A DNA stretch of 64,000 nucleotides from an uncultured Flavobacteriaceae bacterium (GTDB taxonomy: Bacteria > Bacteroidota > Bacteroidia > Flavobacteriales > Flavobacteriaceae): positions 62,001 to 126,000 of the forward strand of contig CAJXVT010000001.1 in assembly GCA_913062575.1 (NCBI GenBank). The letters are read 5' to 3'. Below, piece by piece: positions 18,428 to 61,546 of the stretch. The translations under genes and the position numbers were made by a program. The notes beneath the pieces were generated by a model. That model searched no databases and was not told the DNA's origin. It was given only the letters and a program-made list of their open reading frames with translations. Numbering within the stretch: the stretch's first letter is position 1; each line of letters begins with the position of its first letter.

Positions 18428-20382
18428 GGTTTGAAGAATTTTAAAATCAATATTTCAAAGAACAAAGATACAATAGCTAATGCTAAAAACCATTTCCAAA
18501 ACCAAGTAACTTTATTTTTTTCTTGATTTGTTTGGAAAACATCAGTGACAGATTCAGAATAGCGTAAGTTCTTGTTGTTGGTGATCAGTTCTTTAATGTT
18601 TAAAAATTGCAACTCACTTTCAAGTGAATTGTTATTGTAGGCAAGGTTTTTTATAGAGGTATTCTCTATTTTCACAGTATATAGCCCTTGTTTATTTGGC
18701 TTTTCTTTGGTCTGTAATGTAACCTTTGATGGATAAGATTGTTGAAGTGGTATAAATGAATTCGTGTTGTCTTGAATAGACAAAACTTGATTTTTAGTAA
18801 GTGATGTTGCTATGTCAATAAAATTAGTTTTGCCAATTGTGTAATATGGTTTTGGGTATTTGGCGCTTAATTTTCCAAAATTATAAAATAGAGGAACTAC
18901 TAAAGGGGAATTTGTGAAATTACTGTTTTGTGTGTTTAGTGAGCTCGAGCTCCAATAAATAATTCCTTTTTGTAATTGAATTTGACTAAAAAACTGTTGT
19001 TGATTGTCAAATTTAATTAAAGAAGAGCTCTTAGTAAAGTTGCTTGGATAATAATTTTTTACTGTTGGATATTGAAAATTCCGTACTTCTTTAGAAAAGA
19101 CATTTTTAAAAAATGGGCTTTTAAAATTGATGTTTGCAATTTTTAATGAATCCTTTTTTAGGTTTTGAATGCGTCCTAAATTTAGTGTGTTGAAAAACGA
19201 ATTATAAGAATTTGTGTTCGCTTTTTGACTCGGAATAATAACCACACTTTTATTTTCATTTAAATGTTTTTGTAGAAATGTAATCAAGGTGTTTGGAATT
19301 CTGTCTAGTTCATTTAAGATGATTAATTCTTGTTTATTTAATGCATTATAATTGATGTTTTGAATGGAGCTGATATTGAAATCGAACTCATTTTTATTGT
19401 ATATTTTTGATAAGAATTCATGATTATTCCCTATGCTAAAAACGTTGATTTTTTTGCTCTGATTTAATGTGAAAAAGAAACTGTTATCAAAGCTAAAAGC
19501 ATCGTCAAAATCAATGGTGATTTTTCCATTTATTTTTTGTGTATTTTGAATCGGGAAGACAATGGTTTTTCTTTCGTTAGTTTTGATTGAGAAAGTTTGT
19601 TTAGCGAAAACAGCATCCTTGTTGTATAATGCTATTGGAATGTTGATTTTTTCAGTTCCCTGATTTTTCACAACAACGTGTACTAAGAAATTTGTATTGC
19701 TTTGGTTTTGTATAAATATACTGTCAATTGATACATTGTTTTTTTGTGTGGTAGCTAATTGTATAAAAGAAACTGAAGATGTTACATTTGTAAATGCTTC
19801 TTTTTTTAGTGCTTTAATTATTTGAAAATCAGATATTAATAAGGCGCTACTTGAGTTGTTAGTTCTATTTATGCTTGAGCTTTTGATTTTTAATAAAACC
19901 TCGTCTAGAGGTCTGGAATCGCTGTTGTTTTTTAAGTTCAAGAGTAGTTTCTTAAGATCAGAAAAGGAAATATTTTTATGTTCGTCAGAATTGGTGAGTA
20001 AACTATAGGTTTCATTTTCTGAAGCGTTTTCTATAATTTCTTTTATAGCATTTTGTAATAGATCTCCTTTTTCTCCTTTTGAGTTTAAACTTAAAGAATT
20101 GTCTAAATATATAAAATTATGATGAATTTCTTTAGTTTTTTTATCACTAATATATGGTTGAGAAAAAGCAATAATTATTGCTGATAAAAGTATTAATCTA
20201 GAAGCCAGTATTAACCATTTTTTTAGCTTAGAACTTTTTCGTGTTTGAAGTACTAATTTTTGTAAAAAGGCAACATTGGTAAATGGTGTTTTTTTAAACT
20301 TTTGCAATTGAAATAAATGCACCAGAATAGGTAGTATTAAAAACACTAAAAAATATAAAATTTCTGGATGTTTAAGTTGCAT
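18424..20382 (-). CDS. BatA-domain membrane protein with VWA-like region
   Basis: The 652-aa protein starts with LKHPEILYFLVFLILPILVH, the BatA N-terminal membrane segment, followed by FKKTPFTNVAFLQKL and a second membrane span about residues 57-75. A VWA-like region begins near residue 90 with IYLDNSLSL, an approximate MIDAS start. The central part is a long, Asn/Ser-rich extracytoplasmic domain, and the protein ends with a third span, WFWKWFLALAIVSLFFEIL. Bat proteins were described in Bacteroides aerotolerance, but their molecular role is unclear. It is the first gene of a translationally coupled operon with a dihydroorotase-like gene. Confidence 0.82.
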   Translation of the reverse strand: MQLKHPEILYFLVFLILPILVHLFQLQKFKKTPFTNVAFLQKLVLQTRKSSKLKKWLILASRLILLSAIIIAFSQPYISDKKTKEIHHNFIYLDNSLSLNSKGEKGDLLQNAIKEIIENASENETYSLLTNSDEHKNISFSDLKKLLLNLKNNSDSRPLDEVLLKIKSSSINRTNNSSSALLISDFQIIKALKKEAFTNVTSSVSFIQLATTQKNNVSIDSIFIQNQSNTNFLVHVVVKNQGTEKINIPIALYNKDAVFAKQTFSIKTNERKTIVFPIQNTQKINGKITIDFDDAFSFDNSFFFTLNQSKKINVFSIGNNHEFLSKIYNKNEFDFNISSIQNINYNALNKQELIILNELDRIPNTLITFLQKHLNENKSVVIIPSQKANTNSYNSFFNTLNLGRIQNLKKDSLKIANINFKSPFFKNVFSKEVRNFQYPTVKNYYPSNFTKSSSLIKFDNQQQFFSQIQLQKGIIYWSSSSLNTQNSNFTNSPLVVPLFYNFGKLSAKYPKPYYTIGKTNFIDIATSLTKNQVLSIQDNTNSFIPLQQSYPSKVTLQTKEKPNKQGLYTVKIENTSIKNLAYNNNSLESELQFLNIKELITNNKNLRYSESVTDVFQTNQEKNKVTWFWKWFLALAIVSLFFEILILKFFKP

Positions 20383-36283: not shown

Positions 36284-36377
36284 TTTATCTGGTTGTTATA
36301 TGTAAGTAATCTACGATATTACAAAAAAGAACTAATACATAGTTTGAAAGTGTATCTTTTAACACTTTTTAACAAAA

Positions 36378-58502: not shown

Positions 58503-59099
58503 ATGGTTGTAGGTTTAACAGGCGGAATCGGAAGTGGGAAATCTACTGTATTAAAAGAATTTCAAGAGATTGGAAATATAGCTGTATATAATGCAGATGA
58601 AGAAGCCAAAAAATTAATGGTATCGTCTTCTGTAATCCGTGCTAAAATCAGTAGCGAGTTTGGGAGTCAATCTTATACAAACAATGAGTTAAATCGCTCT
58701 TATATATCTTCTGTAGTATTTGCAGACAAAGATAAATTATCAAAATTAAATGCTATTGTCCATCCAGAGGTTTTTAAGCATTTTAAAAATTTTGTAGCTT
58801 CAAATCTAGATAAAGAGTATGTGCTTTATGAAAACGCAATTTTGTTTGAAAATGGAAGCGATGTTTTATGCGATGTAATTATTTGTGTTGTTGCCAGTAA
58901 ACAGGTAAGAATTCAAAGAGTTGTTAAAAGAGATGGAGTTACAGAAACAGAAGTGATTCGTAGAATCCGCAATCAATGGAGCGATTCAAAAAAGAGATTA
59001 CTATCTAACTATATCATACACAATCAGAATGTTAACAATCTACAAGGTCAAATTATTAGAATTCATAATAATTTAACAGAAAACAAAGCTCAAATTTAA
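58503..59099 (+). CDS. coaE: Dephospho-CoA kinase
   Basis: The 198-aa protein opens with MVVGLTGGIGSGKSTVLKEF, the P-loop, and has YNADEEAKKLM near residue 33 for the substrate Asp, VHPEVFKHFKNF near residue 86, LYENAILFENG near residue 108 and QRVVKRDGVTETEVIRRIRNQ (LID region) near residue 138. It phosphorylates dephospho-CoA to CoA, the last step of coenzyme A synthesis. The order ybbR-coaE is typical of Flavobacteria. Length and motifs are complete. Confidence 0.95.
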   Translation: MVVGLTGGIGSGKSTVLKEFQEIGNIAVYNADEEAKKLMVSSSVIRAKISSEFGSQSYTNNELNRSYISSVVFADKDKLSKLNAIVHPEVFKHFKNFVASNLDKEYVLYENAILFENGSDVLCDVIICVVASKQVRIQRVVKRDGVTETEVIRRIRNQWSDSKKRLLSNYIIHNQNVNNLQGQIIRIHNNLTENKAQI

Positions 59100-59140
59100 A
59101 TAAGTTCATTTTTTTTCTTAAAAAATTCTTAAAATCTTAG

Positions 59141-59198
59141 TAAATTTGTTAATATGCGTTAAAAACGTCAGTTAACAACATTTAAACGCATATTTTTG
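59141..59198 (+). promoter_or_regulatory. Promoter and 10-bp inverted repeat before the two-component genes
   Basis: Two -7 boxes occur, TAAATTTG (59141-59148) and TATTTTTG (59191-59198). Between them AATATGCGTT (59151-59160) and AACGCATATT (59185-59194) form a perfect 10-bp inverted repeat with a 24-base spacer centred on the palindrome GTTAAC. It is a good candidate operator for autoregulation. Confidence 0.55.
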
Positions 59199-59199
59199 A

Positions 59200-60780
59200 A
59201 TGATGGGTAAAAAAATGTTTGTCCTTATTGTAGTTTTAATGAGCTTTTCTTTAATCGGAATTGTGACTGTCCAAATATATTGGATTGGCAATGCTGTTGA
59301 GACAAAAAATAAGCAGTTTAAGAGTGATGTTAAAAAATCCTTGGCGCAAGTTTCTGCAGAAGTTAGTGAAAAAGAATACTTAGAGTTTTATAGAAAAATA
59401 AGCCCATATCTTGAGGTTACAGGTAAGCCGTCTGATAGTCAGATTCATAACTACATGTTGCAGCAAATTGATACTACAGGAAAACAATTATTTTCATATA
59501 GTTTCACTTTTGTAGAGCAAGGAATTGAAATTCCTACAGAAATTTTAGCAAATGATAGTTTAGATATTGTCGTGAAAAGAATCGCTAGTAAAGAAGATAT
59601 TTCTACTTTTTCAAATATTACTTCAAACAGTGATTTTGCAAATAATAATAGCTCACAGACCTTTACAAAAATTCAGCGTAATCAAGTTCAAGAAGAAGCC
59701 TACATAAAAGAAGTATTTAATAATTTCAGAGCATCTTTTCCAATACCTATTCATCAGAGAGTTAGTAATAGAGAGTTAAATTTATTATTAAGTGAAGCAT
59801 TTACCAAGCATGGAATTGATATTGATTTTAAATATGGAGTTTACAGTACGGATGGATATTTAACTAATTTAAAATCGGGATACTACACAATAAACAAAGC
59901 AAATAGTATTGGACGTCCATTGTTTATAAATAATGGAGAGAGTAAATTCACCTTATATGTTACTTTCCCAAACCAACAGGAACACATCATATCTGATATC
60001 TCAAATATATTATTTCTCTCTTTATTTTTTATTTTTATTATTATCGTTGCATTTTCTAGTTCTTTATATCAATTGATTAGACAAAAGAAAATATCAGAAA
60101 TTAAAACGGATTTCATTAATAATATGACGCATGAGTTTAAGACGCCCATAGCAACAATCAATTTGGCTTTAGATGCCATTAAGAATCCGAAAATCATCAA
60201 TGATAACGAAAAAGTAAAACGTTATGTTAAGATGATTCGTGAAGAAAACAAACGTATGCATGGCCAAGTAGAAAACGTTTTAAGAATTTCTAAATTGGAG
60301 AAAAATCAATTAGAGATTAGTAAGGTTGCACTTGATGTGCAAGATGTAGTTGAAGAAGCTATTTCTCATGTTAGATTGTTAGTTAATAATCAGAAAGGAA
60401 CCATAACAACACATATTCAGGCAGTACGCTCAGAAATATTAGGAAATCAATTGCACTTAACAAATGTAATTATAAACATGTTAGAGAATGCGTTGAAGTA
60501 TTCTGAAGGAGAGCCAAATATTGAAGTTTTTTCAGAAAGCACAGCAAAATTTTTTATTCTTAAAATTAAAGATGATGGAATTGGAATGGGGAAAAGCGCT
60601 CAGAAATATGTGTTTAATAAATTTTATAGAGAGCACAAAGGAAATGTACATAATGTTAAAGGACATGGATTAGGTTTGGCTTATGTAAAAGAAATTGTAG
60701 AGAACCATCAAGGAACGGTTTTTGTTGAAAGTGAAAAAGGAAAAGGAAGTACGTTTACGGTAAAATTGCCATTAATTTAA
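59200..60780 (+). CDS. Sensor histidine kinase, membrane-bound
   Basis: The 526-aa protein has a first membrane span at about residues 6-28, a ~235-residue extracytoplasmic sensor region, and a second span at about residues 268-288 (ISNILFLSLFFIFIIIVAF). HisKA follows with MTHEFKTPIATINLALDAI (phospho-His about residue 312), then the ATPase with IINMLENALKYSEG near residue 428, KDDGIGMGKSA and GHGLGLAYVKEIVENH. There is no HAMP domain. The architecture resembles the RprX type of Bacteroidota. Its response-regulator partner follows 13 bases after its stop. Signal unknown. Confidence 0.93.
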   Translation: MMGKKMFVLIVVLMSFSLIGIVTVQIYWIGNAVETKNKQFKSDVKKSLAQVSAEVSEKEYLEFYRKISPYLEVTGKPSDSQIHNYMLQQIDTTGKQLFSYSFTFVEQGIEIPTEILANDSLDIVVKRIASKEDISTFSNITSNSDFANNNSSQTFTKIQRNQVQEEAYIKEVFNNFRASFPIPIHQRVSNRELNLLLSEAFTKHGIDIDFKYGVYSTDGYLTNLKSGYYTINKANSIGRPLFINNGESKFTLYVTFPNQQEHIISDISNILFLSLFFIFIIIVAFSSSLYQLIRQKKISEIKTDFINNMTHEFKTPIATINLALDAIKNPKIINDNEKVKRYVKMIREENKRMHGQVENVLRISKLEKNQLEISKVALDVQDVVEEAISHVRLLVNNQKGTITTHIQAVRSEILGNQLHLTNVIINMLENALKYSEGEPNIEVFSESTAKFFILKIKDDGIGMGKSAQKYVFNKFYREHKGNVHNVKGHGLGLAYVKEIVENHQGTVFVESEKGKGSTFTVKLPLI

Positions 60781-60793
60781 AAAATCATTATTT

Positions 60794-61489
60794 ATGGGAA
60801 GTAAAAAAATATTATTAGTAGAAGATGATCCAAATTTTGGAACAGTATTAAAAGATTATTTAGCATTACATGATTATAATGTAACACTTGCAAAAGATGG
60901 TATTGAAGGCTTAATTGAATTTAAGAATAACGATTTTGATCTTTGTATTTTAGATGTAATGATGCCGCGTAAAGATGGTTTTTCTTTAGCAGCAGATATA
61001 AGATCTACAAATAAAGAAATTCCGATTGTCTTTTTAACAGCAAAGACAATGAAAGAAGATGTGTTAAGAGGATATCAAGTAGGAGCAGATGATTATTTAA
61101 ATAAGCCTTTCGACTCTGAAGTATTGTTATTTAAAATTAAAGCGATTTTACAAAGAAAAGAGTCTGACACTAATAAAGAAACTGACGAGTTTGAATTTAA
61201 TATTGGTAACTTCTTTTTCAACTCTAAATTAAGACATCTTTCATATGATAAAGGAGAAATTCAAAAACTATCTCCAAAAGAAAGTAAATTGTTGAAAATG
61301 TTAGCTGTGCATAAAAATGATTTAATGCCAAGAGAATTAGCATTAACTAAAATATGGAGAGATGATAACTACTTTACCTCACGAAGTATGGATGTTTATA
61401 TTGCAAAATTGCGTAAATATCTAAAGAATGACGAGGATGTAGAGATTCTAAACATCCATGGAGAAGGATTTAGATTGGTTGAAAAATAG
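60794..61489 (+). CDS. OmpR-type response regulator
   Basis: The 231-aa protein has a receiver domain (LLVEDDPNFGTVLKDYL near residue 8 with the acidic pair, phospho-Asp in CILDVMMPRKDGF near residue 54, VFLTAK with the conserved Thr/Lys, and DDYLNKPF) and a C-terminal winged-helix domain from about residue 130, with LSPKESKLLKMLAVHKND and SRSMDVYIAKLRKYL (recognition helix). It is the cytoplasmic output of the kinase upstream. The inverted repeat in their shared promoter is a plausible autoregulatory site. A terminator follows. Confidence 0.95.
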   Translation: MGSKKILLVEDDPNFGTVLKDYLALHDYNVTLAKDGIEGLIEFKNNDFDLCILDVMMPRKDGFSLAADIRSTNKEIPIVFLTAKTMKEDVLRGYQVGADDYLNKPFDSEVLLFKIKAILQRKESDTNKETDEFEFNIGNFFFNSKLRHLSYDKGEIQKLSPKESKLLKMLAVHKNDLMPRELALTKIWRDDNYFTSRSMDVYIAKLRKYLKNDEDVEILNIHGEGFRLVEK

Positions 61490-61509: not shown

Positions 61510-61546
61510 TAAAAAAAGCTCAATTAATTTTAATTGAGCTTTTTTA
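61510..61546 (+). terminator. Intrinsic terminator after the two-component genes
   Basis: AAAAAAAGCTCAATTAA and TTAATTGAGCTTTTTT form a long perfect stem with a short loop and T-run. Confidence 0.9.

Follow-up and report, generated by a model that had tools for sequence, protein, structure and literature searches.

The window is the whole stretch of DNA that was analysed, 64,000 nucleotides in length with a G+C content of 31%. Within it, a YbbR-like gene, coaE, a spacer, a histidine kinase gene, an OmpR/PhoB-type response regulator gene, a likely terminator and a Sua5/YrdC gene follow one another in this order. The terminator stem lies directly after the regulator gene and likely separates it from Sua5/YrdC. 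The sequence-only reading had reported a perfect inverted repeat in the promoter of a two-component system, and the domains of the two downstream genes confirm a histidine kinase and an OmpR/PhoB-type response regulator. The close named relatives of the source genome are Polaribacter and Tenacibaculum, and in most relatives, too, coaE precedes the kinase gene. The features of the locus are as follows.

58503–59099, plus strand: coaE (dephospho-CoA kinase), the gene upstream (Pfam CoaE; NCBIfam TIGR00152 above cutoff).
59117–59133, plus strand: upstream TTAA pair, CTTAA-N6-CTTAA (TTAA at 59118 and 59129; 11-bp period; approximately −86 to −70).
59141–59148, plus strand: box 1, TAAATTTG, a possible weak or secondary −7 element.
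59148–59162, plus strand: main operator, direct repeat GTTAA-N5-GTTAA (approximately −55 to −41 from the predicted start; binding predicted).
59151–59160, plus strand: left arm of the inverted repeat, AATATGCGTT, exact; it covers part of half-site 1, the half-site spacer and part of half-site 2.
59185–59194, plus strand: right arm of the inverted repeat, AACGCATATT, exact; it overlaps the first half of box 2.
59191–59198, plus strand: box 2, TATTTTTG, the sigma-A −7 element of the kinase operon promoter.
59203–60780, plus strand: histidine kinase (HisKA and HATPase_c), with the conserved ATG at 59203.
60794–61489, plus strand: OmpR/PhoB-type response regulator, RprY-like (Response_reg and Trans_reg_C), the predicted binder of the operator.
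61512–61545, no strand assigned: likely terminator of the kinase–regulator operon (15-bp perfect stem, 4-nt loop, T run at the end).

The kinase and the regulator belong to the OmpR/PhoB-family two-component systems. The receiver and winged-helix domains of the regulator and the HisKA and HATPase domains of the adjoining kinase are all above the Pfam gathering scores. The best NCBIfam model for the regulator is RprY (NF051850), at 285.6 bits, which is under the curated cutoff of 370. Its score against the CpxR equivalog is 115.2 bits, far under the cutoff of 341. Because it falls below both equivalog cutoffs, the regulator is named RprY-like, and Cpx-like in action only. In the AlphaFold model, the kinase consists of a transmembrane helix, an extracytoplasmic domain (approximately residues 72–257), a second transmembrane helix and the kinase catalytic core. 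This layout is consistent with envelope sensing but is unspecific for it.

Conservation was assessed in coaE–kinase spacers from 71 distinct Polaribacter/Tenacibaculum-type loci and from 63 other Flavobacteriaceae. Column conservation was calculated from the 63 of the 71 Polaribacter/Tenacibaculum-type spacers that could be stacked on the window spacer. The direct repeat GTTAA-N5-GTTAA is perfect in 61 of the 71 loci, and it is conserved where the remainder of the spacer is not. In the 63 stacked spacers, the columns at 59148–59153 and 59158–59163 carry approximately 2 bits each. Both TTAA of the upstream pair are kept in 60 of 63 relatives. In the other Flavobacteriaceae, GTTAA-N6-GTTAA is found upstream of the kinase in 56 of 63 spacers, and the half-site period is 11 bp compared with 10 bp in the window. 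A uniform N6 half-site spacing was discarded as wrong for the Polaribacter/Tenacibaculum-type clade, which has N5. The start-to-box distance is 43 in one spacer group and 44 in the other, which means that the second half-site stays approximately 28 bp from the −7 box and the first has moved by one base. OmpR/PhoB regulators typically bind tandem direct repeats. The suggestion that the locus holds a binding site for the adjacent regulator is well supported by comparison, but the symmetry given for that site was wrong: it is a tandem direct repeat and not an inverted repeat.

As a negative control, 576 ORF upstream regions, drawn jointly from the window and the loci of 80 relatives, were searched for GTTAA-N5/6-GTTAA. 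The motif is present in 74 of these regions, 73 of which belong to this kinase. GTTAA-N5-GTTAA occurs at just one further position in the window (GTTAAAAAGTGTTAA, 36359–36373, minus strand). An ORF for an M28-family peptidase (36283 to 34733, minus strand) lies approximately 75–90 bp downstream of this repeat, and there is no TAnnTTTG at the usual distance from the repeat.

The two −7 boxes that had been reported on either side of the repeat are present, and the terminal G of box 1 is at the same time the initial base of the first GTTAA. GTTAA-N5-GTTAA sits 28 bp upstream of box 2. The two boxes differ in conservation. Of 63 relatives, 62 have TAnnTTTG within 1 bp of box 2, and 19 keep it at box 1. 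Two transcripts, with and without a leader, had been proposed, but these counts make one main, probably leaderless promoter the simpler reading, and a pair of equal promoters was rejected on the weak retention of box 1. Box 2 was also thought to end one base before the start codon, at 59200. The start codon is at the position aligned with 59203 in 148 of 149 homologous loci, and an ATG aligns with 59200 in nine of the 149; the gap between box 2 and the conserved start is thus 4 nt. In Flavobacterium psychrophilum, the TAnnTTTG box spans −12 to −5, and 5.5% of mapped mRNAs are leaderless (PMC9723704). With this spacing, transcription from box 2 would begin at 59203, on the first base of the conserved ATG, and the main kinase-operon transcript is probably leaderless.

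The inverted repeat itself has a different distribution. It is as described, with AACGCATATT the exact reverse complement of AATATGCGTT across a 24-nt spacer, and the genome search that had been suggested for AATATGCGTT-N24-AACGCATATT returns one copy in the source genome assembly (2.36 Mb, 68% complete). The GTTAAC placed at the spacer centre (59171–59176) is one base off the dyad, centred at 59173.5 compared with 59172.5 for the repeat, and GTTAAC is present in none of 62 relatives. Perfect 10-bp arms with spacers of 20–28 nt occur three times in the window, compared with a mean of 2.15 (range 0–6) in dinucleotide shuffles. As the number of comparable repeats matches the shuffles, the inverted repeat needs no explanation. 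Among 63 distinct homologous coaE–kinase spacers, those of the source genome and L004 alone have perfect arms, and nine of the ten pairs are kept in L003. Neither L005 and L006 nor any relative at a greater distance has retained the repeat. This lack of conservation is what the sequence-only reading had named as evidence against its site. Complementarity of the arms at homologous positions averages 3.95 of 10 pairs, compared with 3.82 when the right arms are permuted among loci (n = 63; permuted maximum 4.0). In the stacked spacers, those right-arm columns that do not belong to the −7 box are near random.

These data bear on two explanations that give the inverted repeat a function. In the first, which was also the first proposal of the sequence-only reading, a two-fold symmetric dimer binds the inverted repeat as its operator; the ten perfect pairs and the perfect or nearly perfect arms of L004 and L003 speak for it. 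Such an operator is nevertheless very improbable, and it was rejected on the chance-level count and the loss from other relatives; complementarity equals the permuted null, and the left arm is made up mostly of conserved half-sites that are retained while the right arm varies. More improbable still is an RNA hairpin formed by the two arms that controls box 2 or kinase translation, an idea close to the hairpin that had been proposed to control the downstream −7 box. The 10-bp stem does form in a fold of the isolated 44-mer (−8.4 kcal/mol, z −2.33). However, a transcript from the poorly conserved box 1 would start at approximately 59153, within the left arm, and its MFE structure leaves the arms unpaired and is no more stable than shuffles (z +0.19), the result on which the hairpin was rejected. 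The region is untranscribed from box 2, and the arms show no covariation. The inverted repeat is probably a coincidence lying over a genuine, conserved direct-repeat operator. A striking inverted repeat can come about by chance across two unrelated conserved elements.

The promoter layout recurs elsewhere in the genome. A search of 59 genomes with the pattern GTTAA-N5/6-GTTAA-N27/29-TAnnTTTG returns a handful of sites per genome. In the source genome, the sites with the full layout precede this kinase, a DegP/HtrA-like protease on G000:C14 (promoter at 19290–19339), an outer-membrane-type ORF (G000:C15) and another kinase, which is RprX-like (G000:C47). Proteases of the DegP type serve quality control in the periplasm. 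The protease contains Trypsin_2 and PDZ domains. Its best family is Do/DegP (TIGR02037), at 361.9 bits, and it is called DegP/HtrA-like because this score is under the curated cutoff of 416.2. The degP promoters of 48 of 50 Flavobacteriaceae genomes, nearly all from different genera, contain GTTAA-N5/6-GTTAA, compared with 0.2 in shuffles. In these 50 genomes the degP repeat is mostly N6, lies 27–28 bp from TAnnTTT[G/A] and is never found on the reverse strand. In 20 further genomes that are divergent or lack the kinase, the degP upstream stretch contains the repeat in 19. The sole exception (G133) has neither the degP repeat nor this kinase and regulator. A third conserved block, AAATGTTAAAAT, comes just before the −7 box both in the kinase promoters of other Flavobacteriaceae (e.g., L055 and L076) and in Polaribacter-type degP promoters (e.g., L190). 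This block is absent from the kinase promoter of the window and present at degP of the source genome.

In 20 complete genomes, the pattern has 49 matches, of which 29 are this kinase (17) or degP (12) by coordinates. The remaining 20 matches are no excess over the 28 in a reversed-pattern control, and a wider core regulon across the family was rejected for these genomes. Sites with the same layout also occur in single lineages (L191, L194), before genes named here by sequence appearance alone: a thioredoxin-fold exported protein in G028 and a prolyl-oligopeptidase-like lipoprotein in G005, the latter with similar cases in G015 and G016.

The reading judged likely from these sequences is that the coaE–kinase spacer is the autoregulated promoter of the kinase operon, that the regulator acts on this operon and on degP through the direct repeat, and that the inverted repeat is incidental. 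The phosphorylated regulator (60794–61489) would bind the tandem GTTAA half-sites at 59148–59162 as a head-to-tail dimer, and a second dimer would probably occupy the TTAA pair at 59117–59133. The bound protein would act on RNA polymerase at TATTTTTG, with the transcript probably starting at the ATG at 59203. The same regulator would drive the DegP/HtrA-like protease gene through the same layout. The most likely role of the kinase is to monitor the envelope, which would make the system Cpx-like. Binding of the repeat by the regulator, the activating rather than repressing effect of that binding, and what the kinase senses are all predictions. A broader proposal has about an even chance of being correct. 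In it, Flavobacteriaceae almost universally possess an envelope-stress two-component system, and across the family the core regulon of this system would consist of just two promoters, those of its own operon and of degP. The system would act through GTTAA-N5/6-GTTAA fixed 27–28 bp upstream of the Bacteroidota −7 box, and one clade would have changed its half-site spacing by a single base without altering the distance to that box.

The identity of the bound regulator and the sign of its effect are the points at which other explanations compete. The GTTAA repeat may belong to another OmpR-family regulator, either an orphan or the product of a paralogous pair (HK2/RR2), which would control both the operon and degP. 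The HK2/RR2 promoter does have its own GTTAACGNGTGTTAA-type site, and RR2 also scores best against the RprY model. This kinase, however, is present in 147 of 151 Flavobacteriaceae genomes and HK2 in 52 of 151, and HK2 is missing from 29 of the 48 genomes with a degP site. The spread of this kinase matches that of the degP sites, and for this reason the regulator adjoining it is favoured as the probable binder of the repeat; control by another regulator is improbable. One genome (G157, 80% complete) has the degP repeat with the kinase and the regulator undetected, which possibly reflects an assembly gap. In G202, the regulator lies at a contig edge, so the kinase is cut off. In several of the most divergent genomes, the degP site is present and the kinase is without a perfect repeat. 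If the adjoining regulator does bind, it might still repress the promoter, and this negative autoregulation is unlikely but carries more weight than the use of another regulator. RprY of Porphyromonas gingivalis has been proposed as a negative autoregulator (PMC3646045). That protein has no kinase partner and its site is undefined. At the locus, no −33 element is obvious and the core promoter has the repeat on its upstream side (approximately −55 to −41), a layout more usual for activation. Activation is more likely than repression on this architecture.

The paralogous pair HK2/RR2 (L186; G000:C47:7000–11500) is preceded by its own GTTAACGTGTGTTAA repeat at the −7-box distance. This repeat is shared with a divergent Porph_ging (GLPGLI-type) gene, and the corresponding site in relatives reads GTTAACGAGTGTTAAC.

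The closest known systems each share some features with this one. E. coli CpxRA autoregulates, and, like the system here, it is a two-component system with an extracytoplasmic sensor region. E. coli CpxR controls degP/htrA (PMC6737893). The promoter architecture shared here by degP/htrA and the kinase operon would parallel this pairing of targets, but the promoter type differs, the regulator is not a CpxR equivalog, and no CpxP-like or other folding genes were found in the core set. RprXY of Bacteroides fragilis and P. gingivalis is alike in that RprY is the best NCBIfam family of the regulator, and it differs in that the regulator is below the equivalog cutoff. EMSA experiments showed binding of P. 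gingivalis RprY to its own promoter; the protein also binds the promoters of stress genes including chaperones, and it is reported as a repressor (PMC3646045). The reported RprY targets are chaperones, ahpC and nqrA rather than degP, and no binding motif is given in the RprY literature examined.

SaeR of Staphylococcus aureus binds GTTAAN6GTTAA (PMC5083920). The two systems share an OmpR/PhoB-family regulator, the GTTAA half-site and its arrangement as a direct repeat. The N6 spacing of SaeR is that of most Flavobacteriaceae kinase and degP promoters, whereas the kinase site in the window is N5. Unlike the system here, SaeRS is Gram-positive and controls secreted virulence proteins, and the match between SaeR and the DNA-binding domain of the regulator is weak (E 0.001) and shows no orthology. 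In F. psychrophilum, a sigma-54 protein-quality regulon uses −24/−12 promoters at groESL, dnaK, clpB, lon and other genes (PMC9723704). It is similar in concerning flavobacterial protein quality control and envelope stress. It differs in that a sigma-A box is part of the degP layout here, and the selection of genes listed for that regulon does not include degP (PMC9723704).

Envelope monitoring in the Bacteroidota is poorly mapped, and the motif supplies a testable operator together with a target, degP. It also gives a simple rule for finding promoters, a GTTAA direct repeat 27–28 bp upstream of TAnnTTTG. No description of the GTTAA-repeat motif or its regulon was found among those open-access papers that the literature search covered. 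The kinase–regulator pair occurs in nearly every Flavobacteriaceae genus sampled. Outside this family, in a small sample with uncertain orthology, related kinases with GTTAA tandem repeats upstream are found in several other Bacteroidota families. The degP sites, in the same sample, are mostly confined to Flavobacteriaceae; the exceptions are two members of the Flavobacteriales that do not belong to this family and two genomes at a greater distance. Two distantly related Bacteroidota kinases (L398 and L408) are preceded by ladders of four GTTAA half-sites in steps of 10–11 bp, which suggests that the half-site is old in the phylum.
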